A DNA stretch of 34,075 nt from the NCBI GenBank assembly GCA_018662305.1, contig JABJGI010000089.1, forward strand, positions 1 through 34,075, written 5' to 3'. The stretch's first letter is position 1, and every line of letters begins with the position of its first letter. This stretch comes from Porticoccaceae bacterium (lineage in GTDB: Bacteria; Pseudomonadota; Gammaproteobacteria; Pseudomonadales; GM7GCV1). Positions 2,559-19,264 of the stretch are shown piece by piece. Under the pieces are notes generated by a model. It saw only the letters and a program-made list of their open reading frames with translations, was not told where the DNA came from and made no database searches. A program made the position numbers and the translations under genes.

Positions 2559-3959
2559 TTGAAAAGTAGTATTACCAAGCTTTCTGTCTTTTGGGTATTC
2601 CTATGCCAATGGGTTTTTGCTGCTTCTGTATATGCCCAAGAGCTTCAGATTTCCGAAACCACGCCATCCTTTGAGGATGAAATTCAACTAGAGCCCGATT
2701 CGGATTCATTGCAATTTTCTGCTGTGGAATCTGTGGAGCTGCTTCTTGAGCAAATAGAAACCGTCGAAGCTGAACAAAATAGCTTTGCCCCAGAGCTTGG
2801 AGAGCTGAGTTTCGAACTCGGTCTTCAATTGGAAACCTTGGGGCTGCATGAAGACGCACTCGAAGCATTCCTCCGCGCAGATCAAAACATGAAGATTCGC
2901 GAGGGTTTGTACTCAAATAACCGCGAAATATTGATCCGAAAAATATTTGACCAGCACGTCGCCCTAAATGACTGGGAGTCTGCCGAGATTGCTTTGGACA
3001 ACAACGCCTGGCTACGAGCCAGAAATGTTGATTCAGACTCTCTTGATTATGTTGAGGTGTTGCAAGAGCTGGTGCGATGGAATTTGGCTGTGGATCACTA
3101 CGATATCGAAGACGAAGAGTCTGTCGCCCTGATTAGAGCCTATTCCGATTTGGAGGAGATTTTTGATATTTATGCTGCGCGGGATATGCCTGCAGATGAC
3201 GTAACTATTAATCTGGCCATGACGGTGAACCATATGCTCTCCCAGCAGGTTTATATTGTGGATAGCGTCGGCCAACGCGATACTTCCGCTGCCCTAGAAC
3301 GCAAATATTTTCGTCAATCTCGAGCCGCAGTGATGGCCTGTCATAGTCTCTATAATGAAGCGGAAGAAATACGGGACCGCTGTTCTCGGTCGGCGGAAAG
3401 AGAGATAAGAAGGAACCTGCCCGAGACAATTCTCATCGACTATTCTTCGGGTCAATACGATCAGAATATTTCTTTCTATTCTCGAAGCTATTTCCGCGGC
3501 AAAGACTTACTGCTCGATCAGCTAGAAGTTCTTAAAGATCAAGGGGATCAGCGGCGGTCACTGGATACCATTATGAAATTGGGTGACTGGTACTTGCTCT
3601 TTGGATACCAGCGCAGCGCAGAAGAAATGTATGCCGCTGCCTGGGCTTATGCGAACCAGATCGGGCAACCTGAAGTGATACATATGCAAGAGCCAATGGC
3701 GATATCTTCTGCCGGCCTGGTTGAGTCTCTACCTCGCTTGGTTGTGGGCAATCGTCAGGGGGAAGCACAGGTTGCGGTCACCATAGCGAGAACAGGCGAG
3801 ATAGAGAAAATTGAATATCTGGATACAGATATAGACGACGAGTCAGTTATCGCAGATTTATCAGCAAATTTAGCGGGTTCAATTTATCGCCCTATCCTGC
3901 GTGACGGTGTTCCTATAGCGGCTGTTGCTTACACGGTTAATAAGCAAGTTTCATACTAG
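2559..3959 (+). CDS. periplasmic helical-repeat protein with TonB-C-like C-terminus (paralogue 1)
   Basis: This 466-residue protein starts at TTG with GAGGGG about eight bases upstream. A signal peptide runs to about residue 26 (ASVYA-QE). The central part is alpha-helical and TPR-like (GELSFELGLQLETLGLHEDA, ALEAF), with conserved KIREGLYS and DWYLLFGYQRSAEEMYAAAW segments. The last 70 or so residues (EAQVAVTIARTGEIEKIEYL, then SIYRPILRDGVPIAAVAY) resemble the TonB C-terminal beta-alpha-beta fold, though nothing here anchors it in the membrane as TonB is. The next gene, eight bases on, is a clear tandem paralogue. As first gene of the cluster it probably acts in the periplasm, handling or docking an envelope partner. 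No function is known to me for this protein. Confidence 0.8.
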   Translation: MKSSITKLSVFWVFLCQWVFAASVYAQELQISETTPSFEDEIQLEPDSDSLQFSAVESVELLLEQIETVEAEQNSFAPELGELSFELGLQLETLGLHEDALEAFLRADQNMKIREGLYSNNREILIRKIFDQHVALNDWESAEIALDNNAWLRARNVDSDSLDYVEVLQELVRWNLAVDHYDIEDEESVALIRAYSDLEEIFDIYAARDMPADDVTINLAMTVNHMLSQQVYIVDSVGQRDTSAALERKYFRQSRAAVMACHSLYNEAEEIRDRCSRSAEREIRRNLPETILIDYSSGQYDQNISFYSRSYFRGKDLLLDQLEVLKDQGDQRRSLDTIMKLGDWYLLFGYQRSAEEMYAAAWAYANQIGQPEVIHMQEPMAISSAGLVESLPRLVVGNRQGEAQVAVTIARTGEIEKIEYLDTDIDDESVIADLSANLAGSIYRPILRDGVPIAAVAYTVNKQVSY

Positions 3960-3967
3960 GGCGAACA

Positions 3968-5416
3968 ATGTCGATGGGAAGAGGCTTTGGTGGAATTAAG
4001 TGCGTGACTTTAGTTGCTGGCTTGATTCTATATCCCTCTTTAACTCTCTCTCAAACTGGAGACAGCCTCGACATCAATCTTGTAGCTTCTGATGTTGATA
4101 TCCCTAGGTCTGTTCATATCTTGCTCGGTGAAATTACGCAACTCGAGGCATCTGAAGACAGTTTTGATCCCAGAATCGGAGAGCTTAGTTTTGAGCTTGG
4201 TATGCAGTTAGCTTCCTTAGGCCTCAATGAACAAGCTCTGGAGGCGTTTCAACGCTCAGATCAAAGCATGAAGATACGAGAGGGTCTTTACTCTGAGAAT
4301 AGAGAGATACCCGTACGCAAAATTTATGAACAGTATTTAGAGCTACACAATTGGGATGATGCCTCTAGCAGCTTAAATACAATCGCATGGATAAAAGCTA
4401 GAAACTACGATTCAAGCTCCCTCGAGTATGTCGACGTGCTGCAAGAGCTCACCTACTGGTCTCTGGCTGAAGACGCCCTGAATCCAGATAACAAGAGAGC
4501 GACCCATTTGATCGCGGCGCACGATAATCTTGAAAAGATTTTCGACATCTACGAGATAAACGAACAACCCCTAGACAATGAAACCCTTGAGCTCGTCGTC
4601 GCCGTAAACCACAGGCTGGCGATGCATGGGGTTTTAGGACCCAATCTTGAGACATTAAAAGAGAGCCAGACTCGAAGACAATTCGATGTATCAACTCGAA
4701 GTTGTGAGACTTTATTTGTCGACGCAGAAGAAGCCTTGGGCAATTGTAGCAATAGGGCGCGACGCCACATTCTGGTGAATACTCCTGAATCAAGCAGTGG
4801 AATAGCCGAGAACCAAACTTTAGCCAACACGCAGCAGTTGTCACCCCTGCAGGAATTTTATTCGAGCCAGAACTGGAGTGTGAATGAAATAGACAACTCG
4901 ATTGAGATTGACACTGATCCCATGCTCCCTTTCTATTCTCAGAGTTATCGTCGTGGCAAGGAATTGCTCTTAGATCAGCTGGATGCTCTCAGAATTGGCG
5001 ATGATCACGTAGCTACCCTAGATTCTCTTCTGGCTCTGGGTGATTGGTATCTTCTGTTTGGATATCTCCAGAGCGCAATTGAGGTCTACACTGCAGCATG
5101 GAATTTCGCTTCTCAGGAAGGACTGGAAGAAATGGTAAACATGCAGCCACCCGCTGCGATATCTCTTGCCGCTTTGGCGGATAATTTGCCTCGACTGAAG
5201 CCAGGAAATCGTGATGGATACGCCAAGTTTTCCCTTGCGGTTGCTCCGACTGGGGAAGTTCAGAGTGTAGATATCATCGAAACCGATATTGAAGATGTTG
5301 AAGTTGTTGCTGAGTTGATCGCTGAGTATTCAATGGCCAGATTTCGGCCTGTTTTGCTTGAAGGGGTTCCGGTGGCCTCGGCAAAATATTTGGTTGATCG
5401 ACGAATAGCTTATTAA
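3968..5416 (+). CDS. periplasmic helical-repeat protein with TonB-C-like C-terminus (paralogue 2)
   Basis: A 482-residue paralogue of the preceding gene. Blocks such as GELSFELG, KIREGLYS-NREI, YV-VLQEL, SYRRGKELLLDQLDAL and LGDWYLLFGY recur in the same order, giving perhaps half-identical residues by eye. The signal peptide ends near residue 28 (TLS-QT). It differs by an insertion around residues 275-305 (rich in Gln, Ser, Asn and Glu) before the conserved FYSQSYRRGKEL block. The C-terminus (FSLAVAPTGEVQSVDIIETD, RFRPVLLEGVPVASAKYLV) again resembles a TonB-C domain. AGGGCGA before the ATG is a good ribosome-binding site. The duplication with retained architecture suggests the two may form a heteromeric pair, which is inference. 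Confidence 0.8.
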   Translation: MSMGRGFGGIKCVTLVAGLILYPSLTLSQTGDSLDINLVASDVDIPRSVHILLGEITQLEASEDSFDPRIGELSFELGMQLASLGLNEQALEAFQRSDQSMKIREGLYSENREIPVRKIYEQYLELHNWDDASSSLNTIAWIKARNYDSSSLEYVDVLQELTYWSLAEDALNPDNKRATHLIAAHDNLEKIFDIYEINEQPLDNETLELVVAVNHRLAMHGVLGPNLETLKESQTRRQFDVSTRSCETLFVDAEEALGNCSNRARRHILVNTPESSSGIAENQTLANTQQLSPLQEFYSSQNWSVNEIDNSIEIDTDPMLPFYSQSYRRGKELLLDQLDALRIGDDHVATLDSLLALGDWYLLFGYLQSAIEVYTAAWNFASQEGLEEMVNMQPPAAISLAALADNLPRLKPGNRDGYAKFSLAVAPTGEVQSVDIIETDIEDVEVVAELIAEYSMARFRPVLLEGVPVASAKYLVDRRIAY

Positions 5417-5431
5417 CTCTGGACCCAAGCC

Positions 5432-6364
5432 GTGACCAGTCTCCGCCCAATCATTCTTTTACCCATAGCCTTGTATTTAGCTGGCTGTATTCCAGCACCT
5501 GCAACTATTCCAAGCCCTAGTGTTCCTTCAGTACCTTCTCCAGTACAGATTCCTACACCTAGTACTGGTATGCCTAGTCCTCCCTCTGTGCCTGGAATGC
5601 CATCACCCGAAAGTGGCAGTGAGGGGAGCTCCCCACCGAGCACTGGTATGCCCAGCCCTCCTTCAATGCCTGGGTCTGAGAGTGGCAGTGAGGGCGATTC
5701 AGAGGGTGACTCTGGTGACTCAAGCCCTTCAAGTAGTGGAGCTAGTGGTCCAGAAAATGAAAATGAGGAGGGATCTGGCACGTCCGGAGAAGAAGAGACA
5801 GCGGATGCCAGTGAAGAAGGTGAATCTGGTAACAGTGAAGAACAAGACTCTATGGATGTTTCTCTTGAAGATGTTACCTCTGATGCGGAATCAGAGCCTA
5901 CCTTCGAAGAGCCAACCTTTGAGGAATCATCACAAACGGACGCCTCTTCTTCTCAGGGTGGGCTGTCTCAGGCTACATTGGAAGAGCTAGAGCGCGTTCT
6001 AGAGCAGGAATTAGGAACCTTTGACTCATCGGTGCAAAGAGAGCAGCGAAATGCCGAAGCGCAGTCGAGAGAGCCTTCTAACCCAGGATCTGCACCCGTT
6101 ATTGTCTTTGAGGACTACCCGGAAGAGCAGCAAGGCGGCGCATCTGGTGGTGGAGCTGGTTCCGGTGGCGGCGAAGGCGAGTCATCGGGTGGAAGTTCGA
6201 GCTCTGATGTTTCGGTAGCTGTTGAGCAATCCCAAATACCCCCTCCCAATCCAGATGACGATATCGTTGCTAGGCAGTTGCGTGAAGCCGCTATTGCCGA
6301 GGCCGATCCTGAGCTTAAACAGCGCCTTTGGGAAGAGTATTACCGGTACACTGGCAGCCAATGA
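5432..6364 (+). CDS. low-complexity lipoprotein, probable periplasmic tether
   Basis: GTG start, 310 residues. The lipobox LAGC puts the lipidated Cys at residue 19, and Ile at +2 predicts Lol transport to the outer membrane. Residues 20-75 are Pro/Ser-rich with repeated GMPSPPS motifs. Residues 60-175 are Ser/Gly/Glu/Asp-rich and strongly acidic, and residues 228-262 are Gly/Ser-rich (GGGAGSGGGEGE). Only two parts look structured: a short helix at about 178-200 (ATLEELERVLEQELGTF) and the C-terminal 45 residues (DDDIVARQLREAAIAEADPE, then LWEEYYRY). Such a chain could span much of the periplasm and present its C-terminal helix to an inner-membrane partner. The stop overlaps the next start (ATGA), suggesting coupled translation. 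The ribosome-binding site is weak. Confidence 0.78.
   Translation: MTSLRPIILLPIALYLAGCIPAPATIPSPSVPSVPSPVQIPTPSTGMPSPPSVPGMPSPESGSEGSSPPSTGMPSPPSMPGSESGSEGDSEGDSGDSSPSSSGASGPENENEEGSGTSGEEETADASEEGESGNSEEQDSMDVSLEDVTSDAESEPTFEEPTFEESSQTDASSSQGGLSQATLEELERVLEQELGTFDSSVQREQRNAEAQSREPSNPGSAPVIVFEDYPEEQQGGASGGGAGSGGGEGESSGGSSSSDVSVAVEQSQIPPPNPDDDIVARQLREAAIAEADPELKQRLWEEYYRYTGSQ
5564..5700 (+). repeat. 78-bp degenerate tandem repeat inside the tether lipoprotein
   Basis: ACTGGTATGCC recurs at 5564 and 5642, a period of 78 bases. Both copies encode TGMPSPPS(V/M)PG followed by ESGSEG; the second has lost nine bases. The third-position differences (CCTAGTCCT against CCCAGCCCT) show it is an old duplication rather than an assembly artefact. 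Confidence 0.7.
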
Positions 6365-7560
6365 AAATTTTAACCCCCCCTATTCTTAAAGTATTGGCGC
6401 TCTTCTGTGTCGCTGGGTTATCGGCCTGCGCCGATTATCAGGTACGTACAACGGATTACACTCCTGTAGAGGTATTACAAACCGAGGTTGCCTTCGATAC
6501 TTTGCTCGACGTAGGTATTCGCGTATTTGAGCCTGAGTTGGAGAATTTGCCGGACGAGGCGCTTGAGTTTGACGGTGTTCGTCAAGCAGAAAGTATTTGG
6601 GTCGCTGATCGCCTAAAAGAGACGTTGGATTCGACCGGAGCCTGGGGCTACGTGCGGGTCATACCGGACGATCTGGTAACTATCGATCTCATTGTCGAGG
6701 GTAAAATTCTGCAGTCAGACGGGGAAACTACGCGCCTAGACCTGACTGCGACAGATTCCAGTAATCGTGTCTGGCTCGACAAGAGCTACACCCAGGTTAT
6801 CAGTCACTATGCCTACTCGTACGAGCAAGTAGGTAATGAGCCTTTTCAGGGGTTATATAACCAAATTGCTAACGACCTCCTGCAGTTAATGGATCAAATG
6901 GAGCCTGGCGCGCGACGCCAGCTGCGTAAAGTTACCGACATGCGTTTTGCAGCTGGTTTTTCTCCAGAGGCATTTTCTGAGTTTTTAGTAGCTGATTCTG
7001 ATGGCCATTATCAGTTAGAACGCTTGCCTGCAGACAACGATCCAATGTTGCAAAGGGTGGATGACATACGCCTTCGCGATCAGATGTTTGTCGACGTCTT
7101 GCAGGACTATTACCGTGGTTTTGTCTCCAATATGGAAACGCCCTATGACGCTTGGCGCGAACAGAGTTTTACGGAGACCACCATAATTCGTGAGTTGGAT
7201 AGTGCCGCCGACGCCAGAAAGCTGGGTGGCTGGCTGGCTATTGCAGCTGGCCTGGGTGCTCAATTTAGTGACGACTATCTAGTCCGCTTAGCAGGCACGA
7301 GTGCTGTTTATGGTGGTGTAGAAAACATTCGGGCAGGTTATATGGCCCAGGACGAAGCACTTTTGCACATACAGACGCTTTCTGAGCTTGGAGAGTCGCT
7401 CGAGTATGAACTCGAACCCAGCGTAATCGAGCTTCAAGATCGCACCATAACCCTGGCAGGCACCACCAGGGATCAATATGACGAGTGGCGCGGTATTCTG
7501 CGAGAAATCTACTTCAGGGAGACAGGTGAAATACCACCTGCGGGCGAAGATGGCGGATAA
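6361..7560 (+). CDS. lipoprotein of unknown function
   Basis: Start at ATG 6361, overlapping the previous stop by four bases, gives 399 residues beginning with a classical lipoprotein signal peptide (lipobox LSAC, Cys23; Ala at +2 predicts outer membrane). The upstream in-frame start at 6328 would place 11 extra residues before the signal and is rejected. Residues 60-140 (VRVIPDDLVTIDLIVEGKIL, DLTATDSSNRVWLDKSY) look like an alpha/beta fold of the kind seen in envelope lipoproteins that assemble on secretion or efflux complexes. A Gly/Ala-rich segment near residues 285-300 (LGGWLAIAAGLGAQFSDD) could be a hydrophobic hairpin. I do not recognise a named family. Its place in the cluster suggests an outer-membrane component of the same complex. 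Confidence 0.72.
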   Translation: MKILTPPILKVLALFCVAGLSACADYQVRTTDYTPVEVLQTEVAFDTLLDVGIRVFEPELENLPDEALEFDGVRQAESIWVADRLKETLDSTGAWGYVRVIPDDLVTIDLIVEGKILQSDGETTRLDLTATDSSNRVWLDKSYTQVISHYAYSYEQVGNEPFQGLYNQIANDLLQLMDQMEPGARRQLRKVTDMRFAAGFSPEAFSEFLVADSDGHYQLERLPADNDPMLQRVDDIRLRDQMFVDVLQDYYRGFVSNMETPYDAWREQSFTETTIIRELDSAADARKLGGWLAIAAGLGAQFSDDYLVRLAGTSAVYGGVENIRAGYMAQDEALLHIQTLSELGESLEYELEPSVIELQDRTITLAGTTRDQYDEWRGILREIYFRETGEIPPAGEDGG

Positions 7561-9067
7561 GAGCTCTGCGCGTCGGGTTGAAGCCGCGCCCTTCGAGCCA
7601 CCTAGCCCAGACAATCAACCCCAACCACAGAAATTTAAGACCCAATGGCCCTACGTCATTGCGGCTGCCCTCCTTATCGTCTTAATTCCATCCATCTTCA
7701 AGGTCGTTGATCTGCTCGGATCAAATGTTGAGTCTGAAGTGGTGGTTTATGGGCTAGATTCGGCTTCCTCAGAAAATGGGGCTATTGCCGGCGAGGAGCC
7801 TATAGATGCGCCCTTTGAAGATGCCCTGCTCGCTGAAGCGCGTTCTAAGGCTCAGGACATACTCTCTGAGCTTCTGCCCCTCAGGCGTGATCTAGAGGCG
7901 CGACGCGCTGCGGAATGGGCTGCTGAGAGCTTTGCTGAGTTGGTTGAACTTGCTCTCGAAGGAGATGAGCTTTATCAATCCAGAGAATTCGAACCTGCTC
8001 TGATTCAATATCAGCAATCCCTGAGTTTAGCTCGTGAAATAGAGGCTGATACGGCGCAAAGCGCAGAAAGCTTTAGACGCGATGGCTATATCGCTCTAGA
8101 AGAAAGAAATGCCGATGAAGCTCGTCATGCCTTTGAATTGGCTGTGGCAATTGAGGAAGACAATGAAGAAGGGCAAATAGGGTTAAAACGTGCGCAGGCC
8201 CTGCCCCAGATCAGAGCGCTGTTGGCGGAAGCCGACAATCTAGTTCAGCAATCGCTGCTAGAGCAGGCGAAAGAAAAGGTTGAAGCCTCTATTACTTTGG
8301 ATAGCGATGATCCTGAGTCACAGCAGATGCTAGCGTACATAGATGCAGAAATTCTGCGCAGGGACTTCCAAGCCTACATGTCGAACGGTTTTCAGCAGCT
8401 AGCTCAAGGAAACTTTCAAGATGCAGAAAACGCATTTCGTTCTGCGCAAACACTGGAGCCCGATAATGACGCAGTATCTGACGCCTTGGATCAGGTCGAA
8501 GCAACACGTGAATCTGATCGAAGTGCTCAAATTCTCCAGCAGGCACGCATTGCCGAGGAGTCTGAAAGCTGGTCTACCGCTCGCGACCGGTACAACCAAC
8601 TTCTTGAAGAAGATCCTAACCGGGTTGAAGCTCGTATTGCGCTAGTCAAAGTTGATGCTCGTTTAAATCTTGAGAACCAGATTCTCCAACACCTTGAGAA
8701 TCCTCTTCGTTTAAAAGAAGAATCTATATGGCGCGACGCAGAGAATACACTCGGACAAGCTCAAACAATCGCTAATCCAGGTCCGGTATTGAGAGGACAA
8801 GTTGATCAGCTTGCAGAAATATTACGCAAAGCCCGCACCCCAGTTCGTCTAGAAGTTGTTTCCGACGGTGCGACTCAGGTCAGTATTCTCGGCGTTTCAG
8901 ACTTGGGTCAAATTCGGAGCCATCCTTTGGACCTAAATCCTGGAATATATGTGGTAATAGGTAAAAAACGCGGATTTCAGGATATTCGTCAGGAAATTGT
9001 TCTGACCGGTGATGAAGCCAGAGTTGTTGTGGATGTTATACCTAATCGCTCGGTAGGGTCGTTTTGA
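7550..9067 (+). CDS. inner-membrane-anchored TPR protein with C-terminal PEGA-like domain
   Basis: Start at ATG 7550, 11 bases inside the previous gene, gives 505 residues. The cytoplasmic tail (1-33) is Pro-rich, followed by one membrane helix (about 34-56, YVIAAALLIVLIPSIFKVV). The rest should be periplasmic: an acidic coiled segment, then tetratricopeptide-like helical pairs at about residues 130-410 (GDELYQSREFEPALIQYQQS, GFQQLAQGNFQDAENAFRSA, AEESESWSTARDRYNQLLEE). The C-terminal 80 residues (TPVRLEVVSDGATQVSILGV, LNPGIYVVIGKKRGFQDIRQ) match a PEGA-type beta-sandwich, as in the next protein. Probably a periplasmic scaffold of the complex. TTGA overlap with the next gene suggests coupled translation. 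Function otherwise unknown. Confidence 0.78.
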   Translation: MADKSSARRVEAAPFEPPSPDNQPQPQKFKTQWPYVIAAALLIVLIPSIFKVVDLLGSNVESEVVVYGLDSASSENGAIAGEEPIDAPFEDALLAEARSKAQDILSELLPLRRDLEARRAAEWAAESFAELVELALEGDELYQSREFEPALIQYQQSLSLAREIEADTAQSAESFRRDGYIALEERNADEARHAFELAVAIEEDNEEGQIGLKRAQALPQIRALLAEADNLVQQSLLEQAKEKVEASITLDSDDPESQQMLAYIDAEILRRDFQAYMSNGFQQLAQGNFQDAENAFRSAQTLEPDNDAVSDALDQVEATRESDRSAQILQQARIAEESESWSTARDRYNQLLEEDPNRVEARIALVKVDARLNLENQILQHLENPLRLKEESIWRDAENTLGQAQTIANPGPVLRGQVDQLAEILRKARTPVRLEVVSDGATQVSILGVSDLGQIRSHPLDLNPGIYVVIGKKRGFQDIRQEIVLTGDEARVVVDVIPNRSVGSF

Positions 9068-11112
9068 GTTCACATCGCACAGAGCAACTAGCGCCTACGG
9101 ATTTTAGTCCGCCGAGCGAAACTCAATCGCAGAACATTCCTGTTCGATTGATCGCCATAGCAGCTCCCGTTCTGTTGCTGGTGATCTGCCTGCTTTATTT
9201 TGTGATTGCCGCATCCAGTCTTCAGGTTAGCACTGTGCCGGTGGCAAATATTTCCATTCAAGGTGGTTGGCATGTCGCTATCGGTCAGCGATACCTTGTA
9301 TTGCCTGGAGAATTCACTGTTCTTGCAGAAACTCCAGGCTACAGGCAGGAGCGTGTTGAAGTGACCGTAGAGTCAGGCAGGTCTGCAGCAATAGAAATGA
9401 TTTTGGCCCCTCTTCCCGGCAATTTACACATCCTGACCGAGCCTGAGGTTCCAGTTCAGGTAAGCCTGAACCAGGAAGACCAAGGGTTGCTAACTAACCC
9501 GCTTCTATCAAATCTTGAGGCGGGAACCTATCAGTTGAGCCTGGATGCCTGGTTGTATGAAGCCTGGTCACAAGAAATTGTTGTGCCGGGCAAGGGAGAA
9601 ACATTGGAACTCGAAGTGAGGCTCGAGCCGAACTGGGTTAACTACCGGGTTGAGTCTGATCCTTCAGGCGCTGATATATATCTCGAAGGACAATCTGTGG
9701 GTGTGACGCCCATGGAACTGCCAATTGAAATTGGCGAGCGTGAAATGTCCTTGTCCTATCTGGGATACCGTGACTATCAAGCCCCCCTCTGGGTTGAGGA
9801 GACCGATGATTTGGTAGTTCGTGAATTTGCCATGATTCCCCTGGAATCCAGCTTGGCAATCAATTCAGATCCCACCGCAGCAACGGTCACTCTAAATGGC
9901 GAGTATTTGGGAGAAACGCCTTTAAGTGTAGAACTGGCTCCTGAGCAATTACACCAATTGGCTCTTTTTAAGGCGGGTTATTTGGGCCATAGCGATCAAA
10001 TACGCATGCAGCACCTAGAGAATCGCGCCATCGAAATTTCACTGAAGCCCGATTTAGCAGATATCAGCATTGCAGTGTCACCAGAGGATGCAGAGGTTCT
10101 AGTCGATGGAGTCGTTGTTGGCAGCGGCAGTCAGAACTTAGAGCTGATGACGCGCAAACAAAGCATTAGCGTGCGCCGAGATGGTTATGAAACACAGGTT
10201 CAGGAGATTCTGCCGACGCGCAATCTCGCCCTTCACCTCAGTTTCAGACTACTTACTGAAGAAGAGTCCGAGTGGGCGGACATTCCCAGTCGATATGCAA
10301 CAAGCCAGAATCAGGAGATGCTACTTTTTCGTGACGCGGGATCTGTACAGTTGGGATCTGATCGGCCAGAGACGGAACGAAGAGCAAACGAGACGCGCTG
10401 GAGCGCTAATTTAGAGCGCGCCTTTTACGTAGCCGCTACGCAGGTCACAAATTCGCAGTATCGGGCCTATAACGCTGATCACAGCTCTGGAAACCGAGAT
10501 GGCGAGAGTCTGGACGGGCCGAATCAGCCCGTTGTAAATGTTAGCTGGCAAGAAGCAGCTCTTTATGCGAACTGGTTAAGTGAACGAGAGGGGCTAACCC
10601 CCTACTACACTACAGCAAGGGGATTTGTTTCTGGAGTAAATCCAGACTCCATAGGTTTCAGATTGATGACCGAAGCAGAATGGTCGTGGCTCGCGCGCAC
10701 GACGACCACGGGATTGACTCAGAAATACAGTTGGGGAGATTCCGATGACCCCAGCACTGTGGAAAATATTGCCGGCGTTGAGGCCAGCGGGCTAATTAAT
10801 TTCTATATCGAATCGGTACAGGATAGATACTCGGTTTCAGCGCCTGTGGGCAGCTTTCCACCTAATCATAGAGGCTTAAGTGATATCAATGGCAACGCCT
10901 CTGAGTGGATTCACGACTGGTATGAACCCAGACCTTATCCTGAGGGAGAGGTACAGACAGATCCCCTAGGTCCGGAGATTGGGGAATTTCATGTGATTCG
11001 CGGTGCCAACTGGGCACGAGGCTATTTGCCTCAGCTAAGGCTGGCTTATCGTGATTTTGGGGCGACGGCTCGGGACGATGTGGGATTCAGGGTGGCAAGA
11101 TATGCGAATTAG
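9064..11112 (+). CDS. membrane-anchored PEGA-repeat protein with FGE/SUMF1-like domain lacking catalytic cysteines
   Basis: 682 residues from TTG 9064, overlapping the previous stop by four bases. One membrane helix (about 28-51). Periplasmic residues 55-400 hold about five PEGA-type beta repeats; clearest are SDPSGADIYLEGQSVGVTPM, SDPTAATVTLNGEYLGETPL and SPEDAEVLVDGVVVGS. From about residue 415 there is a formylglycine-generating-enzyme/SUMF1 fold: VTNSQYRAY, PVVNVSWQEAALYANWLSER, FRLMTEAEWSWLAR, GLSDINGNASEWIHDWY, VIRGANW and GFRVARYAN. The only Cys in the protein is in the membrane helix, so the cysteines that bind copper in true FGE are absent. It is therefore more likely a binding or structural module than a sulfatase-activating enzyme. 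PEGA domains are usually extracytoplasmic adaptors. Confidence 0.88.
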   Translation: MSSHRTEQLAPTDFSPPSETQSQNIPVRLIAIAAPVLLLVICLLYFVIAASSLQVSTVPVANISIQGGWHVAIGQRYLVLPGEFTVLAETPGYRQERVEVTVESGRSAAIEMILAPLPGNLHILTEPEVPVQVSLNQEDQGLLTNPLLSNLEAGTYQLSLDAWLYEAWSQEIVVPGKGETLELEVRLEPNWVNYRVESDPSGADIYLEGQSVGVTPMELPIEIGEREMSLSYLGYRDYQAPLWVEETDDLVVREFAMIPLESSLAINSDPTAATVTLNGEYLGETPLSVELAPEQLHQLALFKAGYLGHSDQIRMQHLENRAIEISLKPDLADISIAVSPEDAEVLVDGVVVGSGSQNLELMTRKQSISVRRDGYETQVQEILPTRNLALHLSFRLLTEEESEWADIPSRYATSQNQEMLLFRDAGSVQLGSDRPETERRANETRWSANLERAFYVAATQVTNSQYRAYNADHSSGNRDGESLDGPNQPVVNVSWQEAALYANWLSEREGLTPYYTTARGFVSGVNPDSIGFRLMTEAEWSWLARTTTTGLTQKYSWGDSDDPSTVENIAGVEASGLINFYIESVQDRYSVSAPVGSFPPNHRGLSDINGNASEWIHDWYEPRPYPEGEVQTDPLGPEIGEFHVIRGANWARGYLPQLRLAYRDFGATARDDVGFRVARYAN

Positions 11113-11401
11113 CCCAGCTAGATACCCTTGGAAGGCCAGTATGGCTCTAGTGGTTCTGATTTCTAGCGGCCTTGTCGCTCAGACTTTTGATAATCCTGAT
11201 GCCGAGATCGAGAGTGGCTTGGAATCCGCGGCTGCAGAGCCAGTAAATGAAGCGGAACTCGATGAGGCTTTGGAAGAATACCTGGAAGAAGAACAACCTC
11301 AATTAGAAGAACAGATTAGTGAGGGTGGTGAATTTGACTCATTTGTGCCGAGCGAGGACATATCTGAGGATTATTCGGTGCCCTTTCCCGTAGATATATA
11401 G
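11102..11401 (+). CDS. small acidic secreted protein
   Basis: 99 residues from ATG 11102, which overlaps the previous stop by 11 bases; an earlier in-frame start (11051) would spoil the signal peptide. A cleavable signal peptide ends near SGLVAQTF (about residue 27). The mature part is about 70 residues, dominated by Glu and Asp (EAELDEALEEYLEEEQPQLE), probably helical or disordered, with a C-terminal SVPFPVDI tail. No family recognised. Position just before the TolQ-like channel suggests a small accessory or linker subunit of the complex. Confidence 0.65.
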   Translation: MRISPARYPWKASMALVVLISSGLVAQTFDNPDAEIESGLESAAAEPVNEAELDEALEEYLEEEQPQLEEQISEGGEFDSFVPSEDISEDYSVPFPVDI

Positions 11402-11409
11402 GCAGTTAA

Positions 11410-12201
11410 ATGAAACATATTCTGGAACGCGAATTTCTATTTCAAATCGTTGCGCTCATTCTCTCTTTCGTAGTGGTCCACTCGGTCTATATTGCCATTA
11501 TTAGGCCTAACGCCGAAGAGGTGATTGCCTATGAGGCTTTAATGCTGGAACAAGGAACCCCTGTTGATGATCGCTCCGCTTGGGTAGTTCTGAAAGATTA
11601 TGAGCAGGAGACCTGCTTTGTCTTGATGTTCTGGGCTTTGGCAATTATGACCTTCAAGGGCAGCCGAATAGTCGCTGAGAGAAAGTTATTCGACAAGGCG
11701 CTGATACCTGTTACTGAGGGCAGTAAAATCCTCTCAGAGGATGCTCGTCAGCTTGCTAGACCTATAGAGGCTCTACCCGAACTTTCTCGAGATTACCTGC
11801 TGCCGAGAGTACTGTCCGTTGCGCTACAGCGCCTGGGATCTGGATCGAATATTCAGGAGATCTCCGCATCTATTCGCGATGAATGTGATATTGAATCACA
11901 GAGGTTGGATACCGAGCTTTCCATGATTCGTTATATCGCCTGGGCGATTCCCTCGATTGGTTTTATCGGTACGGTTAGGGGTATTGGCTCAGCCTTGGCG
12001 GATGCACACGAAGCGATCAGTGGAAATATTGCAGGGGTAACCGCTAGTTTAGGGGTTGCCTTTAATTCTACATTTATCGCCCTACTGATCAGTATTCTGA
12101 TTATGTTTTTGTCCCATCAGCTCACTTTGCAACAGGAGCGGTTGGTTCTTTCAGCGCAGCGCTACTGCGACAAAAATTTACTCCGGCATATCAAGGCCTA
12201 A
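11410..12201 (+). CDS. MotA/TolQ/ExbB-family proton channel
   Basis: 263 residues, ATG with AGGCAG upstream. Predicted membrane segments at about 9-31, 68-84, 180-200 and 214-237. The C-terminal half carries the family signature AWAIPSIGFIGTVRGIGSAL, then GVTASLGVAFNSTFIALLIS, equivalent to the TM2/TM3 core of TolQ and ExbB that forms the pentameric ring around two TolR/ExbD helices. By family it uses the proton motive force to move a periplasmic partner. The N-terminal half (residues 90-170) is a cytoplasmic loop unlike classical TolQ and more like MotA in size. No separate tolR/exbD gene is present; the two VWA proteins downstream are the likely partners. Confidence 0.9.
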   Translation: MKHILEREFLFQIVALILSFVVVHSVYIAIIRPNAEEVIAYEALMLEQGTPVDDRSAWVVLKDYEQETCFVLMFWALAIMTFKGSRIVAERKLFDKALIPVTEGSKILSEDARQLARPIEALPELSRDYLLPRVLSVALQRLGSGSNIQEISASIRDECDIESQRLDTELSMIRYIAWAIPSIGFIGTVRGIGSALADAHEAISGNIAGVTASLGVAFNSTFIALLISILIMFLSHQLTLQQERLVLSAQRYCDKNLLRHIKA

Positions 12202-12215
12202 AAAGGAAGACTCGC

Positions 12216-13559
12216 ATGTCCCGTCTACTGGATATTAAAGACCTTGAAGTGGCGCTACTCAGCTCTAGTGGCACGGTCAAATCACCTGGCTACGCTTCTC
12301 TAGATGATCGTGATCTTATATTCGGATCGCCTGCACGTGCGATATCTCGCCTGAATCCAGGTATGTCTGCGAACCAGTATTGGCGTGATCTAAGCACACA
12401 AAAAAGCTCGGCCAATTTTCCTAGTATTCGACATCAGGCAGATCTTGCCTGGAACCATCTGAAATCTTTCGATGCGTCCGAATTGCAGAATGTTTCTCTG
12501 GTGGCGGTTCCCTCTCACTACACTAAGGATCAGATTGCGCTGCTCTCGGGAGTGTTGAAATCCCTAGAGGTGTCGGACAGCTTAATCTGTAAGCGATCCT
12601 TGCTTATGGCGGCGCTACACCCCCAAGCCGAATACCAGGTAGATTTTCAACTACACCAGCTAGTGGTAACTAAGCTAGAGAAACAGGGTGCTGAGATCAT
12701 ATGCGGCGATATGGTTGAGTTCCCCGGTTTAGGTCTGCTTGGCTGCAGTGACGCCCTTCTCAAAGGGATACAGGCCCGTTTTATCGATAAGACGCGCTTC
12801 GACCCACTGCATCATGCGATCACAGAGCAACAGCTGTTTAATCAACTTATGGAGCAGTTATTGCCGCAGAAATGGCATCGAATTGACTTACAAATAGAAT
12901 TAGAGGACCAGAAAAACTCCATCGAGTTATCAGAGCAACAACTGGAAGAAGCCGCCTCTGAGTATTTGGAGAAAATCAGGGCTGTGCTGCCCTCTGCCCC
13001 ATTTGTTGCTGATCACATATTCGGAAATTTACCTATCGATGTTAATACTGGGCTATATCTACCAGCTGAGCAGATGGTAGCAGCGCTGGATGAAATATTG
13101 CCCTCAGCGAACCCCGCTAAGGAATTTGTCGAGCTCACTGCTATTGCAAACCCTGCGGTGAACAGCTCTCCTCTTGAAAGTAGTTCTTCTGAAAATAATG
13201 GGGAAGCTTCGAGTTCAGCTGACTTAAAAAGCGAAAACCCCGTTATGCCTTCGGCGCCAGTGTCGGCTGAGGTGAAGTCATCTACCACTCATCTACTTGC
13301 GAATGGCAGAGCTATACCACTTGCTGGCGCGACTATTGTGGCTGATGGTAATCGTATGACGGTAACCACTGGTTCTGTAGATTCACAGCTTATTCTTGGG
13401 CGAATAACTACTGATTCTGGTCGAATTCAGTTGATGCCGGAAACGGGCTTAAACCTAAATGGTGCACCTATCGCTTCTGCAACTGATCTCAGCGTCAGAG
13501 ATATTGTTAGTCATCATGACTACGCTGGGACCCTAGTGGCAATTGAGGTCGTTGACTAA
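12216..13559 (+). CDS. cytoplasmic protein, possible degenerate actin/Hsp70 fold with FHA-like tail
   Basis: 447 residues with no signal or membrane helix; AGGAAG before the ATG is a strong ribosome-binding site. The N-terminal 290 residues recall the ASKHA (Hsp70/actin) layout: a strand pair and turn (LEVALLSSSGTVKSPGYASL, then LIFGSPA), VSLVAVPSHYTKDQIALLSG where Hsp70 has its VITVPAYF segment, and IICGDMVEFPGLGLLGCSDA later. The DxG phosphate motifs are not preserved, so ATP hydrolysis is doubtful. Residues 300-352 are a Ser/Glu-rich linker. The last 90 residues (GRAIPLAGATIVADGNRMTV, GLNLNGAPIASATDLSV) look like a beta-sandwich of FHA type, without a clear phosphothreonine site. Both fold proposals are inference by eye. 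It could be the cytoplasmic regulator or assembly factor of the channel. Confidence 0.65.
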   Translation: MSRLLDIKDLEVALLSSSGTVKSPGYASLDDRDLIFGSPARAISRLNPGMSANQYWRDLSTQKSSANFPSIRHQADLAWNHLKSFDASELQNVSLVAVPSHYTKDQIALLSGVLKSLEVSDSLICKRSLLMAALHPQAEYQVDFQLHQLVVTKLEKQGAEIICGDMVEFPGLGLLGCSDALLKGIQARFIDKTRFDPLHHAITEQQLFNQLMEQLLPQKWHRIDLQIELEDQKNSIELSEQQLEEAASEYLEKIRAVLPSAPFVADHIFGNLPIDVNTGLYLPAEQMVAALDEILPSANPAKEFVELTAIANPAVNSSPLESSSSENNGEASSSADLKSENPVMPSAPVSAEVKSSTTHLLANGRAIPLAGATIVADGNRMTVTTGSVDSQLILGRITTDSGRIQLMPETGLNLNGAPIASATDLSVRDIVSHHDYAGTLVAIEVVD

Positions 13560-13567
13560 GACTGTCC

Positions 13568-14635
13568 ATGGCTCGTAAACAACGCATTGGAACCACTTTC
13601 AGCCTTTCCTTCCTGGATATAATGTCTTGCGGATTAGGGGCGACGGTTTTGCTCTTTCTTATCGTCCGACACAATATTGATCCTGTGGTGCAGGTTTCCA
13701 CAGACTTAAACGCTGAAACTGAGATGCTGCAAGAAGAGATTCGCATCGGTGAAGAAAATCTGGTGCGAATTCGCAATACCATTTCAGATATAGACGACCA
13801 GCTAGCCCAAGCTACTGGCCTGGCCCGTCAAATCCAGGATGAGATCGAAAATTTACAACGGCAAATTGAACAGCTGGACCCCAATGCTGTCGAAAGTCTC
13901 GCTGAACTCGAGCAGAGGTTAGCGGAATTGGAATCACAGAGATCCTTGTTACAGCAGGCCGGCGGAGACCGCGTACGCCAATATGTTGGTGAGGGGCAGC
14001 GGCAATACCTCACTGGTATCAAAATGGGAGGTCAGCGCACCTTAATACTAGTTGACCGCTCCGCAAGTATGTTGGACGAGACTATCGTCAATGTGGTTAT
14101 TCGTAGAAACCAAAGTGATGAAATAAAGCGTCAATCACCCAAATGGCAACAAGCGGTTGATATTGCCGACTGGATTATTACCAATCTAGAGCCGGATACT
14201 CGATTTCAGTTATACAGCTTTAACGTGGAGGCAGAATCCACAGTGCCTGGTACTACAGACTCCTGGTTGCCGGTATCCGAAGAAGTGGTTCTTAATGGCG
14301 CTATTCAGGGGTTGAGAGGCCAGCTGCCGGAAAAAGGAACGAGCTTGATTAATGTGTTTTCGCGTATCTCCAACTTGAACCCTCAGCCGGACAATATCTT
14401 TTTGATCACCGACGGACTGCCTACTCAAGGAAAGCTGCTATTGACCAATGGCTCCGTAAGCGGGCGTGAGCGAGTTGCTTATTTTAATGAAGCTCTGGAT
14501 GAGCTTGGGCAAAATATTCCGGTAAATGTGCTTCTCTTGCCCATGGAAGGAGATTATTTCGCTGCCTCAGCTTTCTGGACTATGGCTGTCAGAACTCGAG
14601 GTTCCTTTCTCACCCCATCGAGGGATTGGCCATGA
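13568..14635 (+). CDS. VWA-domain protein with TolR/ExbD-like N-terminal helix (1)
   Basis: 355 residues. A single N-terminal membrane helix (about 14-37) reads SFLDIMSCGLGATVLLFLIV; an Asp at the helix start followed by a hydrophobic run resembles TolR/ExbD (F-I-D-V-M), where the Asp is the proton-carrying residue. Residues 45-130 form a heptad-rich periplasmic coiled coil (ENLQRQIEQLD, ESLAELEQRLAELESQRSLL). A von Willebrand A domain follows with an intact-looking MIDAS: DRSAS (163-167), a Thr in KGTSLIN and an Asp in LITDGLPTQ. Such domains bind protein ligands through a divalent metal. The stop overlaps the next start (ATGA). I propose it is the stator-type partner of the TolQ-like protein encoded two genes upstream. 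Confidence 0.85.
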   Translation: MARKQRIGTTFSLSFLDIMSCGLGATVLLFLIVRHNIDPVVQVSTDLNAETEMLQEEIRIGEENLVRIRNTISDIDDQLAQATGLARQIQDEIENLQRQIEQLDPNAVESLAELEQRLAELESQRSLLQQAGGDRVRQYVGEGQRQYLTGIKMGGQRTLILVDRSASMLDETIVNVVIRRNQSDEIKRQSPKWQQAVDIADWIITNLEPDTRFQLYSFNVEAESTVPGTTDSWLPVSEEVVLNGAIQGLRGQLPEKGTSLINVFSRISNLNPQPDNIFLITDGLPTQGKLLLTNGSVSGRERVAYFNEALDELGQNIPVNVLLLPMEGDYFAASAFWTMAVRTRGSFLTPSRDWP

Positions 14636-15618
14636 TTCGACGGCGCAGTGCAGACGATACGAATATTTCCTTTCTGGATGTTATTTGCTGTGGTTTTGGC
14701 GCCATCGTCCTGCTTCTGGTTATTGTACAGACACACTCGCCTGAAGTTATTGAAGAAGCCGATACAAACGAGCGAGAGTCTATTCGGGCTTTGCAAGAGC
14801 AGCTATTTGCACTCCGCGGAGAAATAAATATCCTCAACCGCGATTTGAACGCCAAACACGAACAGCTTGGCATCGAAGATGAATTGGTCGCTATCCTTAA
14901 GGACGAATTGGAAGTTTCGGAAATGCGCCTTAAAGCGCTTGACCAAGAAAATACCGCTGCTGCCGGCCCTCGCGGCGAACTTCAGGCGGCTTTGCAAAGC
15001 CTGACTGAGGAGATGCGTCGGCTGTATAGCAACTACCAGAACGATACTAACTATATTGGCGGTATCCCGGTGGATTCCGAGTACATCATTTTTGTGATTG
15101 ATACATCGGGGAGTATGTTCACCTACTCCTGGCCTCGGATGATCGATGAATTAATTTCGATTCTCGATATTTATCCGAGGGTTGAGGGGCTTCAAATCAT
15201 GAACGATATGGGGCAATACATGTTCACCAGTTTTCGCGGACAGTGGATCCCCGATTCGCCGGACCGAAGAGATATTATTATTAGTCAGCTAAGAAACTGG
15301 CATCCATTTAGTAATTCGAGCCCAGTCGAGGGAATTCAGGCGGCGATTCGGACTTTTTACGAATCCGACCAGAAGATGAGCATTTATGTGCTGGGAGATG
15401 ACTATACTGGAAGATCACTGGAAGCCGTTCTCGATACAGTGTACAACTTGAACCGTCAGGCGAACTCTGGAGAGCCAATGGTACGTATTCACGCCATAGG
15501 GTTTCCTTTGATGATAGCGGTTGGTGAAGCAGACGCTGCAGCCAGATTTGCCGCACTAATGAGAGAGCTGGCTCAGCAGAATATGGGCTCATTTGTCGGA
15601 CTAAATGATTACAGGTAA
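14632..15618 (+). CDS. VWA-domain protein with TolR/ExbD-like N-terminal helix (2)
   Basis: 328 residues from ATG 14632, which overlaps the previous stop (ATGA); a TTG six bases earlier is less likely. Same plan as its neighbour: membrane helix ISFLDVICCGFGAIVLLLVI (about 13-32) with the Asp in the same place, a periplasmic coiled coil (about 45-120), then a VWA domain with FVIDTSGSMF (MIDAS DTSGS, 157-161). The later MIDAS positions are less canonical: NSSPVEG replaces the usual Thr region and VLGDDYTG supplies an Asp. TolR/ExbD works as a dimer inside the TolQ/ExbB pentamer, so the two VWA proteins could form a heterodimer. It is diverged enough from its neighbour that the duplication must be old. 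Confidence 0.85.
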   Translation: MIRRRSADDTNISFLDVICCGFGAIVLLLVIVQTHSPEVIEEADTNERESIRALQEQLFALRGEINILNRDLNAKHEQLGIEDELVAILKDELEVSEMRLKALDQENTAAAGPRGELQAALQSLTEEMRRLYSNYQNDTNYIGGIPVDSEYIIFVIDTSGSMFTYSWPRMIDELISILDIYPRVEGLQIMNDMGQYMFTSFRGQWIPDSPDRRDIIISQLRNWHPFSNSSPVEGIQAAIRTFYESDQKMSIYVLGDDYTGRSLEAVLDTVYNLNRQANSGEPMVRIHAIGFPLMIAVGEADAAARFAALMRELAQQNMGSFVGLNDYR

Positions 15619-15621
15619 TTT

Positions 15622-16200
15622 ATGGTGTTAGTACGTTCAATCTTAGTTTCGGGTTTGCTGATTTTGGCGGGATGCTCGTCAACTCACACCATTGATACGG
15701 ATTTCCCAATCCCACTTATCGAACGCATCCCCGCTTCCGGTTATCTCAACTTGACTCCGGAGTTTCAGCAGTACAATTTCATTCAGGACGAAGAAGATCG
15801 CTCTGATATGACCGTTATTCTCGGCCCTGCTCAATCCAGTATGTTTTCCAGCATATCTGATGCGCTCTTTGCCGAAGCTGCCGCCTCTGCTAAAAGTGCA
15901 GATATTACATTGCTCCCCGACCTCGACAGTTATCAATACGCCTTGCCGAAAGAGACCGGGTCCGACTTTTTCGAGGTTTGGCTGAAATATCGGCTTCAGG
16001 CATTAGATAAGGACGGGCAGCCGATAGCAGACTGGCTAATCACGGGATATGGCCGGGCTACGGATGAGCGCCTGCAAACTCAGGGAGCTGGAGTAAATGA
16101 AGCCACTGTGGAAGCGCTACGAGATATTGGTACCCAACTCACCTTGGGCTTCTCCCAACAAGCGGATATTCGAGCATGGTTAGACCAGAACTCAATTTAG
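15622..16200 (+). CDS. lipoprotein of unknown function
   Basis: 192 residues beginning three bases after the previous stop, with CAGGTAA as ribosome-binding site. Lipobox LAGC, Cys18, Ser at +2 (outer-membrane sorting). The mature part has an alpha/beta appearance (MTVILGPAQSSMF, DITLLPDLDSYQYALPKE, EVWLKYRLQALDKDGQPIAD, WLITGYGRATDERL), similar in general layout to small envelope lipoproteins that sit on larger complexes. No named family recognised. It is followed by a second lipoprotein overlapping by 25 bases, so the pair is probably made together. Confidence 0.72.
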   Translation: MVLVRSILVSGLLILAGCSSTHTIDTDFPIPLIERIPASGYLNLTPEFQQYNFIQDEEDRSDMTVILGPAQSSMFSSISDALFAEAAASAKSADITLLPDLDSYQYALPKETGSDFFEVWLKYRLQALDKDGQPIADWLITGYGRATDERLQTQGAGVNEATVEALRDIGTQLTLGFSQQADIRAWLDQNSI

Positions 16201-16850
16201 ATTTGCGGATTTATGTGGTTCTTGCGGTAGTCCTGCTAGTTGGCTGCAGCTCTGTGACAGTGGATGAGATGCGTTTGACTGAAACGGAAATTGATTTGGA
16301 ATCGGACACTGTCGTTGTTCTCGGGCGCCAGCATTCACCAGCCTATGAAGCTGAGGGCGATCTGGTAAGTTGTGTTGCGTCGCAACTGCGCTCAGGTTCA
16401 CAGGGTTTGTCTGTGGTACCTGACGAAGAGTTCGTTGATGCGCTTTACCCTTGGTTTGAACCTCGCACGGCGCCGCTAAGTCTTGAAAGGCTCGAAAACC
16501 TTCTCGATCGACCTATATTGCAAAATGCGATAGACAGTTTCGCAGTGAGATACATTATCTGGATTGAAGGTGCGACAGAAACCACAGACAGCAGTGGAGG
16601 TATGAGTTGCACCATATCGGCGGCTGGTGGCGGCTGTTTGGGAATGGGAATGTGGGAAGATGAAAGTACCTATGAAGCCAGTATCTGGGATTTTCATGAA
16701 TTACAGGAGGCGGGTCGAGTCAGTGTAGACAGCCGCGGAACCTCCTATATGCCAGCGGTTATCATCCCAATCCCTTTTCTGGCTCGTGTCCAGACCAACT
16801 CTTGTCGGGGGTTGGGAGATCAAATTCAGTCTTTTATTGTTGAAGGCTAG
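16176..16850 (+). CDS. lipoprotein of unknown function
   Basis: 224 residues from ATG 16176, overlapping the preceding gene by 25 bases. Lipobox LVGC with Cys24, Ser at +2. A TTG at 16203 would give a more usual short signal peptide (lipobox Cys at 15), so the true start is uncertain. The mature part has four further Cys residues (SCVASQL, MSCTISAAGGGCLGMGMWED, TNSCRGLG) that may form disulfides in the periplasm, and a Gly-rich beta stretch around AAGGGCLGMG. FAVRYIIWIEGATE suggests a central strand. No family assigned. A DsbD-type thiol transporter is encoded at the left edge, but that link is speculative. Confidence 0.68.
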   Translation: MVRPELNLDLRIYVVLAVVLLVGCSSVTVDEMRLTETEIDLESDTVVVLGRQHSPAYEAEGDLVSCVASQLRSGSQGLSVVPDEEFVDALYPWFEPRTAPLSLERLENLLDRPILQNAIDSFAVRYIIWIEGATETTDSSGGMSCTISAAGGGCLGMGMWEDESTYEASIWDFHELQEAGRVSVDSRGTSYMPAVIIPIPFLARVQTNSCRGLGDQIQSFIVEG

Positions 16851-16853
16851 CTT

Positions 16854-18269
16854 GTGAACCGCTTTATTCCATCGCAAATTTTGAGAGCGCTAGCGGGACT
16901 GGTTTGTCTGGTTAGTCTTGTTGCACATGCTGATGACGCAGAAATTGGGAAAGCCCTACATGAGGAGCTGTTACTAACCGAGCGCTTTTACCACGACGAA
17001 GCCCTCAATGAATTTGTGGATCGCATAGGTCAGAAGGTAGCTGCCAATGGCGATTGGCCCGAACTGGAATACCATTTCTTTATTATCGACAGCGGAGATA
17101 TCAATGCCTTCGCCCTACCCGGCGGATATATTTATGTTAACCGCGGTCTTCTCAATTTCCTGACATCGGAAGCCCAGCTCGCTGCTGTGCTAGCGCATGA
17201 GGTTGCCCACGTAACTCGCAAACATCACAGTCGTCGCGACAATACCAACACCATGGGAAATGTGGCGGCTTTTATGGCGAGCCTGCTTACTCTAAATTCA
17301 AATGTGGGTGAAGCAGTTAGCCTCTGGAATGCAGCTCGTGTGAGTGGATTTGGTCGAGAAATGGAGCTGGAAGCGGATGAGTGGGGAGCTCAATACCTCT
17401 ACAAAAGTGGCTATGACCCACTGGCGATGATTGAAGTGCTCGGCATTTTGAAGGATCACGAAACCTACATGAATCGTGTTGCGCGTAATTCAGGTAGACA
17501 GTCGACCTATCACGGAGTGTTTGCCAGTCACCCCCGCGGAGATACGCGTTTAAAGGAAGTTGTTGCGCAAGCTGGAATGCTGCCACCGGGTGAAGCTTAT
17601 CAGGGCAGAGATGAATATCGGGCTGTGGTTGATGGAGTGGTCTTTGGCGATAGCATTAATAGCAATGCGCCTCCCGGCAAAGCCCGTTATGTGCACAAGG
17701 GTTTAGCGATAACCTTTGCCTATCCGGATGACTGGGTTAGAACAACCATGGGTTCAACCATCAGAGTTGAGTCTCGGGAAGGCGATATTGTCCTAACGCT
17801 TGAGGTCGCATCTATTAGTGATCAGGAGCTTACTGCTGAAGACCTTCTGCTATCACATTTGTCTTCTGAAGAACTTCACGACTCCCGGCAATTAAATGAA
17901 AATATTGATCGGAATGAAGCGATCACCGGTTTTATTGAGACGCAGCCCGGTAGGCAGCGTGTCGCTGCTATGAAGTTGGGTAGTAACGTCTATTTCCTCA
18001 AAGCTCTCTCCCCTGTGCCGGCAGATGAAGAAACTGATGCTCTGCATCTGGAGATCATGTCGAGCTTCCGTCGAGCTTCGAACGCAGATTTACCTCCAGA
18101 CCGGGAATACAACATTATTTACAGAAGACTCGAGCCGGGCGAAACATTTTTAGACCTGGCTAGGACCTCAGTATTGGGGCAGTCGGCGGAGCCGGTTCTG
18201 AGGCTAATTAACGGCTACTATCCCAGTGGCGAAGCGCAGCCAGGCACCTGGATGAAACTTGTGGAATAA
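16854..18269 (+). CDS. periplasmic M48-family zinc metalloprotease
   Basis: 471 residues from GTG 16854 with GAAGG upstream. Signal peptide to about residue 26 (SLVAHA-DD). The zinc site is HEVAH (His115, Glu116, His119) in AAVLAHEVAHVTRKHH, with the third ligand Glu173 in ELEADEWGAQYL; this is the M48 pattern of BepA/YfgC and LoiP. ALPGGYIYVNRGLL is the conserved substrate-cleft strand. Beyond the protease (about residue 250) is an extra C-terminal region: GLAITFAYPDDWVRTTMGST starts a PsbP/Mog1-like beta domain, and the last 50 residues (RRLEPGETFLDLARTS) look LysM-like. Family role: quality control or maturation of outer-membrane and lipoprotein clients. As last gene of the cluster it may process or clear its lipoproteins. 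Confidence 0.9.
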   Translation: MNRFIPSQILRALAGLVCLVSLVAHADDAEIGKALHEELLLTERFYHDEALNEFVDRIGQKVAANGDWPELEYHFFIIDSGDINAFALPGGYIYVNRGLLNFLTSEAQLAAVLAHEVAHVTRKHHSRRDNTNTMGNVAAFMASLLTLNSNVGEAVSLWNAARVSGFGREMELEADEWGAQYLYKSGYDPLAMIEVLGILKDHETYMNRVARNSGRQSTYHGVFASHPRGDTRLKEVVAQAGMLPPGEAYQGRDEYRAVVDGVVFGDSINSNAPPGKARYVHKGLAITFAYPDDWVRTTMGSTIRVESREGDIVLTLEVASISDQELTAEDLLLSHLSSEELHDSRQLNENIDRNEAITGFIETQPGRQRVAAMKLGSNVYFLKALSPVPADEETDALHLEIMSSFRRASNADLPPDREYNIIYRRLEPGETFLDLARTSVLGQSAEPVLRLINGYYPSGEAQPGTWMKLVE

Positions 18270-19234: not shown

Positions 19235-19264
19235 ACTAATGTAGTTCAGTATTCAGGCTCAGTT

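Follow-up and report, generated by a model that had tools for sequence, protein, structure and literature searches.

A conserved fourteen-gene operon encoding a candidate envelope-spanning motor with paired VWA proteins

Described motors and the layout of the operon

Motors of the 5:2 type power flagella, the Ton and Tol systems, and gliding. A further family was predicted in a 2025 survey (Mol Biol Evol, June 2025; PMC12204202), in which TolQ-like genes are tightly linked to heterologous pairs of TolR-like ‘TPH-vWA’ proteins without TolR, ExbD or MotB. The seed organism of this family is Idiomarina loihiensis, and AF3 models place the paired TPH-vWA helices inside a TolQ-like pentamer. The available part of that text says nothing on what these VWA-axle motors work on. 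The operon described here lies in a window of 34,075 nucleotides (the whole stretch of DNA that was analysed) from a 2.2 Mb genome that is 97% complete. It resembles the predicted motors: its TolQ-like gene H sits beside J and K in the window and in nearly all relatives, J and K form a distinct VWA pair whose pore helix has a conserved Asp and no SHLS motif, and the cluster has no tolR-, exbD- or motB-like gene. To judge by their sequences, H, J and K share every testable feature that the available text gives for the TPH-vWA family. The motor core is all that this text covers: it mentions neither the constant partners C, D, E and F nor the accessory I, L, M, N, A and G, and the fold of D and the matched stalk lengths are likewise absent. 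A literature search for the whole gene set turned up only this paper, and no other paper joining these parts was found. The original prediction, that no described system with this set is known, is therefore only partly right: the motor core had been predicted in 2025, while the literature searched contained no account of the conserved partners. The partner set and the outer-membrane end appear new, with the motor core known by prediction.

Fourteen complete open reading frames without internal stops, named A to N, occupy positions 2559-18269 on the forward strand (Table 1). Successive spacings from A to N are 8, 15, -4, -11, -4, -11, 8, 14, 8, -4, 3, -25 and 3 bases, so that the arrangement on one strand with gaps of 3-15 and overlaps of 4-25 bases, claimed from a first inspection, is borne out. 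Promoter and terminator scans gave no signal above shuffles. Directly downstream on the same strand, at 18323-20065, lie a GGDEF and an EAL protein, a cyclic-di-GMP pair; no cyclic-di-GMP family is among the frequent flanking families of the operon’s relatives.

Table 1. Genes of the operon, with positions in the window
Gene	Position	Strand	Product	Basis
A	2559..3959	+	Exported TPR protein, C-terminal TonB-C-like domain, no membrane anchor; TTG start	Profile matches
B	3968..5416	+	Tandem paralogue of A, 45% identical	Sequence comparison
C	5432..6364	+	Lipoprotein, long disordered part and conserved C-terminal motif; core	Motif, operon comparison
D	6361..7560	+	Outer-membrane-type lipoprotein, predicted TolB-N/PelC/FlgT/CsgG-like domain and long helical hairpin; core	AlphaFold model, fold matches
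E	7550..9067	+	Periplasmic TPR protein, single TM (residues 35-53); core	Pfam TPR, hydropathy
F	9064..11112	+	Single-TM periplasmic protein, four PEGA and SUMF1/FGE fold; core	Pfam
G	11102..11401	+	Small exported protein, conserved C-terminal tail SEDxSVSFPVDI	Conservation in relatives
H	11410..12201	+	MotA/TolQ/ExbB-family channel; core	PF01618
I	12216..13559	+	Cytoplasmic pseudo-Hsp70 (ASKHA) with degenerate FHA-like domain; outside minimal core	Model, Foldseek
J (VWA1)	13568..14635	+	Membrane helix carrying Asp17, then a coiled-coil stalk and a MIDAS-bearing VWA domain; invariant alignment columns; core	Conserved residues
K (VWA2)	14632..15618	+	Membrane helix carrying the equivalent Asp, then a coiled-coil stalk and a MIDAS-bearing VWA domain; invariant alignment columns; core	Conserved residues
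L	15622..16200	+	Lipoprotein, conserved in Gammaproteobacteria copies	Present in 59/67 loci
M	16176..16850	+	Lipoprotein with invariant cysteines C66, C145, C154, C210	Alignment; 58/67 loci
N	16854..18269	+	Exported M48 metalloprotease, BepA-like, HExxH intact	Pfam M48 3e-34; 54/67 loci

Conservation and the seven-gene core

Of the 274 genomes of the class, 20 carry J, spread over 16 of the 222 genera sampled, and the same genes surround it in the neighbourhoods of 19 of those 20 genomes. A search of the genome collection with a K profile revealed a wide distribution, with at least 583 encoded relatives, of which the nearest named ones are Gammaproteobacteria; the best 80, which were retrieved, are labelled as Gammaproteobacteria or their genera, except for MAGs with coarse or doubtful labels. 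The comparison used the 67 loci that contain the core gene C together with over 14 kb of sequence. In every one of them genes C to N share a strand, and in 63 their order is identical. The prediction that the same neighbours recur was clearly passed, and every part named at first inspection was confirmed. E, F, J and K are each present in 67 loci, D and H in 66 each, I in 63 and G in 60 (for L, M and N see Table 1). Gene order and strand are kept between relatives that are ~40-60% identical, which is beyond what chance would leave, and many marine bacteria keep the gene set with its order unchanged. In the relatives’ loci the commonest flanking families are generic and variably placed, and none from outside the operon recurs close by. 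Culturable genera carry the operon, among them Microbulbifer, Bowmanella and Halieaceae such as Seongchinamella.

The seven-gene cluster C-D-E-F-H-J-K stands alone in family f199, which belongs to another class of Pseudomonadota (13 of 78 genomes of that class have the cluster), and more distant Gammaproteobacteria also carry only these seven genes. The constant core is thus C-D-E-F-H-J-K; A/B, G, I, L, M and N are additions confined to particular lineages, frequent in Gammaproteobacteria copies and absent from the minimal core. Of the 20 J-positive genomes, 18 also have D, which occurs in one other genome of the 274 (Fisher p=5e-25, with genomes counted as independent). The two J-positive genomes without D are G213, whose cluster (L020) lacks it, and G087, whose locus is on a short contig. 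The sole D-positive genome without J (G185) keeps a decayed remnant at L129:9373-12305, in which C is a fragment, D has a stop, E is broken and F to K are gone, suggesting that the operon set decays together. On these observations the operon is a real, conserved candidate for an envelope machine.

Since accessory sets differ between lineages, some accessory genes may be passengers. For I, the expected cytoplasmic pseudo-ASKHA protein, the model (pLDDT 84.5) has an Hsp70 fold (Foldseek to the Hsp70 family, E 4.8e-15, prob 1.0), while by pattern the phosphate/nucleotide-binding motifs of Hsp70/ASKHA are absent in 82 of 82 copies and the canonical FHA motif in 81 of 82, leaving the FHA-like tail degenerate. 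G ends in FPVDI or a close variant in most of ~79 relatives; its tail is strictly conserved and the remainder of this small exported protein is variable, so that the tail looks like a docking peptide. In M, the cysteines C24, C66, C145, C154 and C210 are invariant in alignment A3, which suggests disulphides; a comparison of the M sequence with solved structures matched nothing useful. Distant relatives of M also occur in two genomes without J.

The putative motor and its outer-membrane partners

The TolQ/MotA-type channel proposed for H matches MotA_ExbB (PF01618, E=2e-15), and its pore threonines (those of GTVRGIG and FNST) are conserved in 89 of 92 copies. The N-terminal membrane helix of both J and K follows the pattern SFLDxxxCGxGA, and its aspartate is conserved in 96 of 98 copies of J and 96 of 97 of K, in register with the aspartate in the helices of the genome’s own ExbD and TolR. 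The Pfam VWA matches of J and K are weak (8e-5 and 0.06), yet a MIDAS DxSxS is found by pattern in 87 of 98 J and 97 of 97 K, in agreement with the reading of both as TolR-like VWA proteins. The two genes are neighbours with distinct products, which share 28% identity in a short stretch only (J matches K at no better than E=8.6e-9), and they are paired wherever the contig extent permits. Comparison with solved structures matched nothing useful for the H sequence and only coiled coils for the J profile. Taken together, the channel threonines and an Asp in each VWA helix are sequence marks of a 5:2 proton motor.

After the helix, each VWA protein has a stalk in which proline is absent or nearly so, with a heptad-like periodicity of 3.5 residues (p=0.001 for J, 0.04 for K). 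The distance from the aspartate to the MIDAS is 152 +- 4 residues in J and 142 +- 2 in K, and stalk lengths covary between the two (Pearson r=0.85 with 92 loci counted as independent; rho=0.71 on 24 distinct pairs). Matched, covarying lengths are what a parallel J:K stalk would give, and such a stalk would bring the VWA heads a long way into the periplasm.

At the outer-membrane end, a lipobox is visible in C, D, L and M and none of the four has Asp at +2, consistent with the four lipoproteins with outer-membrane sorting signals that had been claimed. The AlphaFold model of D has a pLDDT of 81, mostly above 85 in the N-terminal domain and partly of low confidence in the hairpin. Foldseek matched it to PelC (3.9e-5) and FlgT (4.9e-5), and structure comparison gave Z values of 10.9 for FlgT, 10.4 for the LPHT ring and 10.1 for PelC, with CsgG and TolB-N also matching; the matches span only the N-terminal domain (mature residues ~9-163). 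As modelled, this domain has the TolB-N/PelC/FlgT/CsgG-type fold found in outer-membrane rings, and D probably forms a ring at the outer membrane. The same fold also occurs in the non-ring proteins TolB, LptE and PqiC. C is a mostly disordered lipoprotein with a C-terminal helix motif, DDxVARQLREAAxxExDPxxxxxLWxEYRxY, in 64 of 70 relatives, and it is present in all core operons, including those of the other class of Pseudomonadota.

E and F each cross the inner membrane once and have large periplasmic parts, and Pfam finds TPR in E (which is in 67 of 67 loci) and four PEGA domains plus SUMF1 in F, as had been anticipated for a membrane TPR and a membrane PEGA/SUMF1 protein. F lacks the cysteine pair of FGE (no Cys after RGxSW in 48 of 48), and its SUMF1 domain is therefore probably a binding or structural domain.

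The explanation that we favour for this gene set is a proton- (or sodium-) driven motor of the 5:2 type that does mechanical work at the outer membrane through C and D, which we regard as fairly probable. H would form a pentameric channel and J with K a heterodimeric axle, to which each contributes one membrane helix with an ion-carrying aspartate. The paired coiled-coil stalks (~140-150 residues from Asp to VWA) would position the two metal-binding VWA heads well inside the periplasm, and rotation of the axle could there let them push on or grip C and the putative ring of D. E and F would be inner-membrane-anchored periplasmic scaffolds, acting as a stationary frame or adaptor, and the Gammaproteobacteria frame would have gained I as a cytoplasmic pseudo-Hsp70/FHA regulator together with L, M, N, A and G; the products of all fourteen genes may assemble into one machine, of which only the seven-gene core is constant.

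Several lines of evidence point to this motor. The operon and its core are conserved, D and J co-occur, and the remnant in G185 has decayed as a set. The channel Thr and axle Asp are conserved, the latter in register with the genome’s own ExbD and TolR, and the operon has no ExbD or TolR of its own. The covarying stalks, the D fold, the published AF3 models of the homologous core (PMC12204202) and the presence of a complete tolQRAB-pal elsewhere in the genome lead the same way. Other points weigh against it: an orphan ExbD on contig C120 could serve H, the fold matches of D span only its N-terminal domain and this fold is also found in non-ring proteins, the core C-D-E-F-H-J-K contains no obvious outer-membrane pore or cargo gene, its surroundings offer no recurrent outside family, and the accessory sets vary between lineages. 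The motor would most likely serve to move, assemble or export something at the outer membrane, independently of Tol-Pal and Ton. More tentatively, the operon could represent a distinct trans-envelope rotary class in which a heterodimeric VWA axle of fixed, matched length turns within the TolQ-like channel, drives a D ring and exports or assembles cargo without Tol-Pal, Ton or flagella. A seven-gene core that includes an outer-membrane lipoprotein with a ring-associated fold gives the VWA-axle motor a partner and a load to test.

Alternative readings and known systems

A first alternative is that the motor serves outer-membrane upkeep, combining with quality control (the BepA-like protease and the lipoproteins) for envelope integrity in parallel to Tol-Pal, without cargo transport. 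N, present in 54 of 67 loci, fits such a role: the M48 protease assignment is upheld by Pfam, HExxH is found in 71 of 72 copies, and the best NCBIfam match is BepA (8e-35, below cut-off). The resemblance of the D domain to the N-terminal domain of TolB and the TonB-C domain in A are also in line with it. The two periplasmic TonB-C-like proteins announced for A and B hold at profile level only, where A/B and relatives match TonB2 (E=9e-9) and TPR proteins and PF03544 is found in 9 of 17 relatives; the two arose by tandem duplication, most relatives carrying one copy at the operon head. However, the minimal core lacks N, A, L and M, and the spread is patchy (8 of 38 order-level relatives), which disfavours an essential upkeep role. 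We consider upkeep unlikely overall, if far from negligible; with motility or secretion it makes up the main competing uses of the motor.

The second alternative, a surface motility or protein secretion motor like the T9SS/gliding motor of Bacteroidota (GldL-GldM-GldK-GldN), would make F a GldK-like track or ring part. The two systems share a TolQ/MotA-type channel, a periplasm-spanning axle and a SUMF1-fold protein, and F can be likened to GldK, a formylglycine-enzyme-like track component in Bacteroidota (PMC12635249). In all 15 of the 15 members compared, the SUMF1 domain of F matches GldK/PorK (1.5e-35 at best), and GldK is the best NCBIfam match of F from the window. This match is unspecific, since a control from the same genome, a kinase-fused SUMF1 protein whose best match is PvdO, also matches GldK (4.8e-26), and F scores 70 bits against a curated cut-off of 350; membership of F in T9SS was accordingly rejected. 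F is moreover anchored in the inner membrane and is not a lipoprotein, family scans gave no NCBIfam match to GldM or GldN among the operon proteins (remote homologues could escape such scans), and neither a translocon nor an adhesin gene is a recurrent neighbour of the operon. A motor of this kind is therefore quite doubtful.

In a third alternative, J and K are not the axle: H would use an ExbD or TolR from elsewhere, and J/K would dock at the channel side as TonB and TolA do, which is the arrangement of the first vWA family in the available text of PMC12204202. The genome’s four PF02472 (ExbD) matches are on contigs C71, C115, C120 and C100, not on C157. The one on C120 (L119:7195-7617) is the orphan that could serve H; its neighbours are mutM on one side and a hydantoinase-type gene on the other, and the listed neighbourhood contains no channel gene. 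Contig C97 (L120:262-8586) holds a second channel without adjacent ExbD, a 275 aa protein distantly related to H (158 bits against the H profile) with clear homologues in 6 of 274 class genomes. It is surrounded by FHA proteins, two PP2C phosphatases, a peptidase-FHA protein and a Ser/Thr kinase fused to peptidoglycan-binding and SUMF1 domains, and the cluster is perhaps a phospho-regulated motor. Against the side-docking arrangement, the homologues’ helices lie inside the pentamer in the published models (PMC12204202), and the ExbD-less channel on C97 could itself own the orphan ExbD. In addition, nearly all copies of J and K carry the FLD-type Asp at the ExbD position and lack an SHLS motif, making this alternative improbable.

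An anti-phage motor like Zorya, which also pairs a MotA-like channel with a partner bearing an extra domain, is very improbable and a defence role was rejected, as the seven operon proteins scanned with PADLOC matched no Zor model and gave only coiled-coil chance matches in J, the operon has many envelope parts and neither nuclease nor helicase, and no defence genes recur nearby.

Exclusion of Zorya, Mot and Tol-Pal had been part of the original prediction, and the comparison with each agrees with it. Tol-Pal has in common with the operon a channel of the 5:2 family, an outer-membrane lipoprotein and, in the TolB N-terminal domain, a likeness to D. In contrast, the operon is without TolR, TolA and Pal and would use VWA proteins as axle; a complete tolQRAB-pal set is on contig C115 of the same genome, and replacement of Tol-Pal by the operon was accordingly rejected. 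The flagellar stator MotAB differs in that J and K carry VWA domains and have no match to the MotB OmpA-like domain in Pfam. The Agl-Glt system of Myxococcus (AglRQS) likewise combines one TolQ-like channel with two TolR-like partners and uses a VWA protein in gliding, which we take to be CglB. Its VWA domain is not on the TolR-like subunits, unlike in J and K. The available text of PMC12204202 names AglZ as the VWA protein of Myxococcus gliding. Finally, the FlgT/LPHT ring and the PelC, CsgG and TraT rings share the fold of the D N-terminal domain (Z ~9-11 for FlgT, LPHT, PelC and CsgG), whereas their identity to D is ~7-12% and D adds a long helical hairpin.
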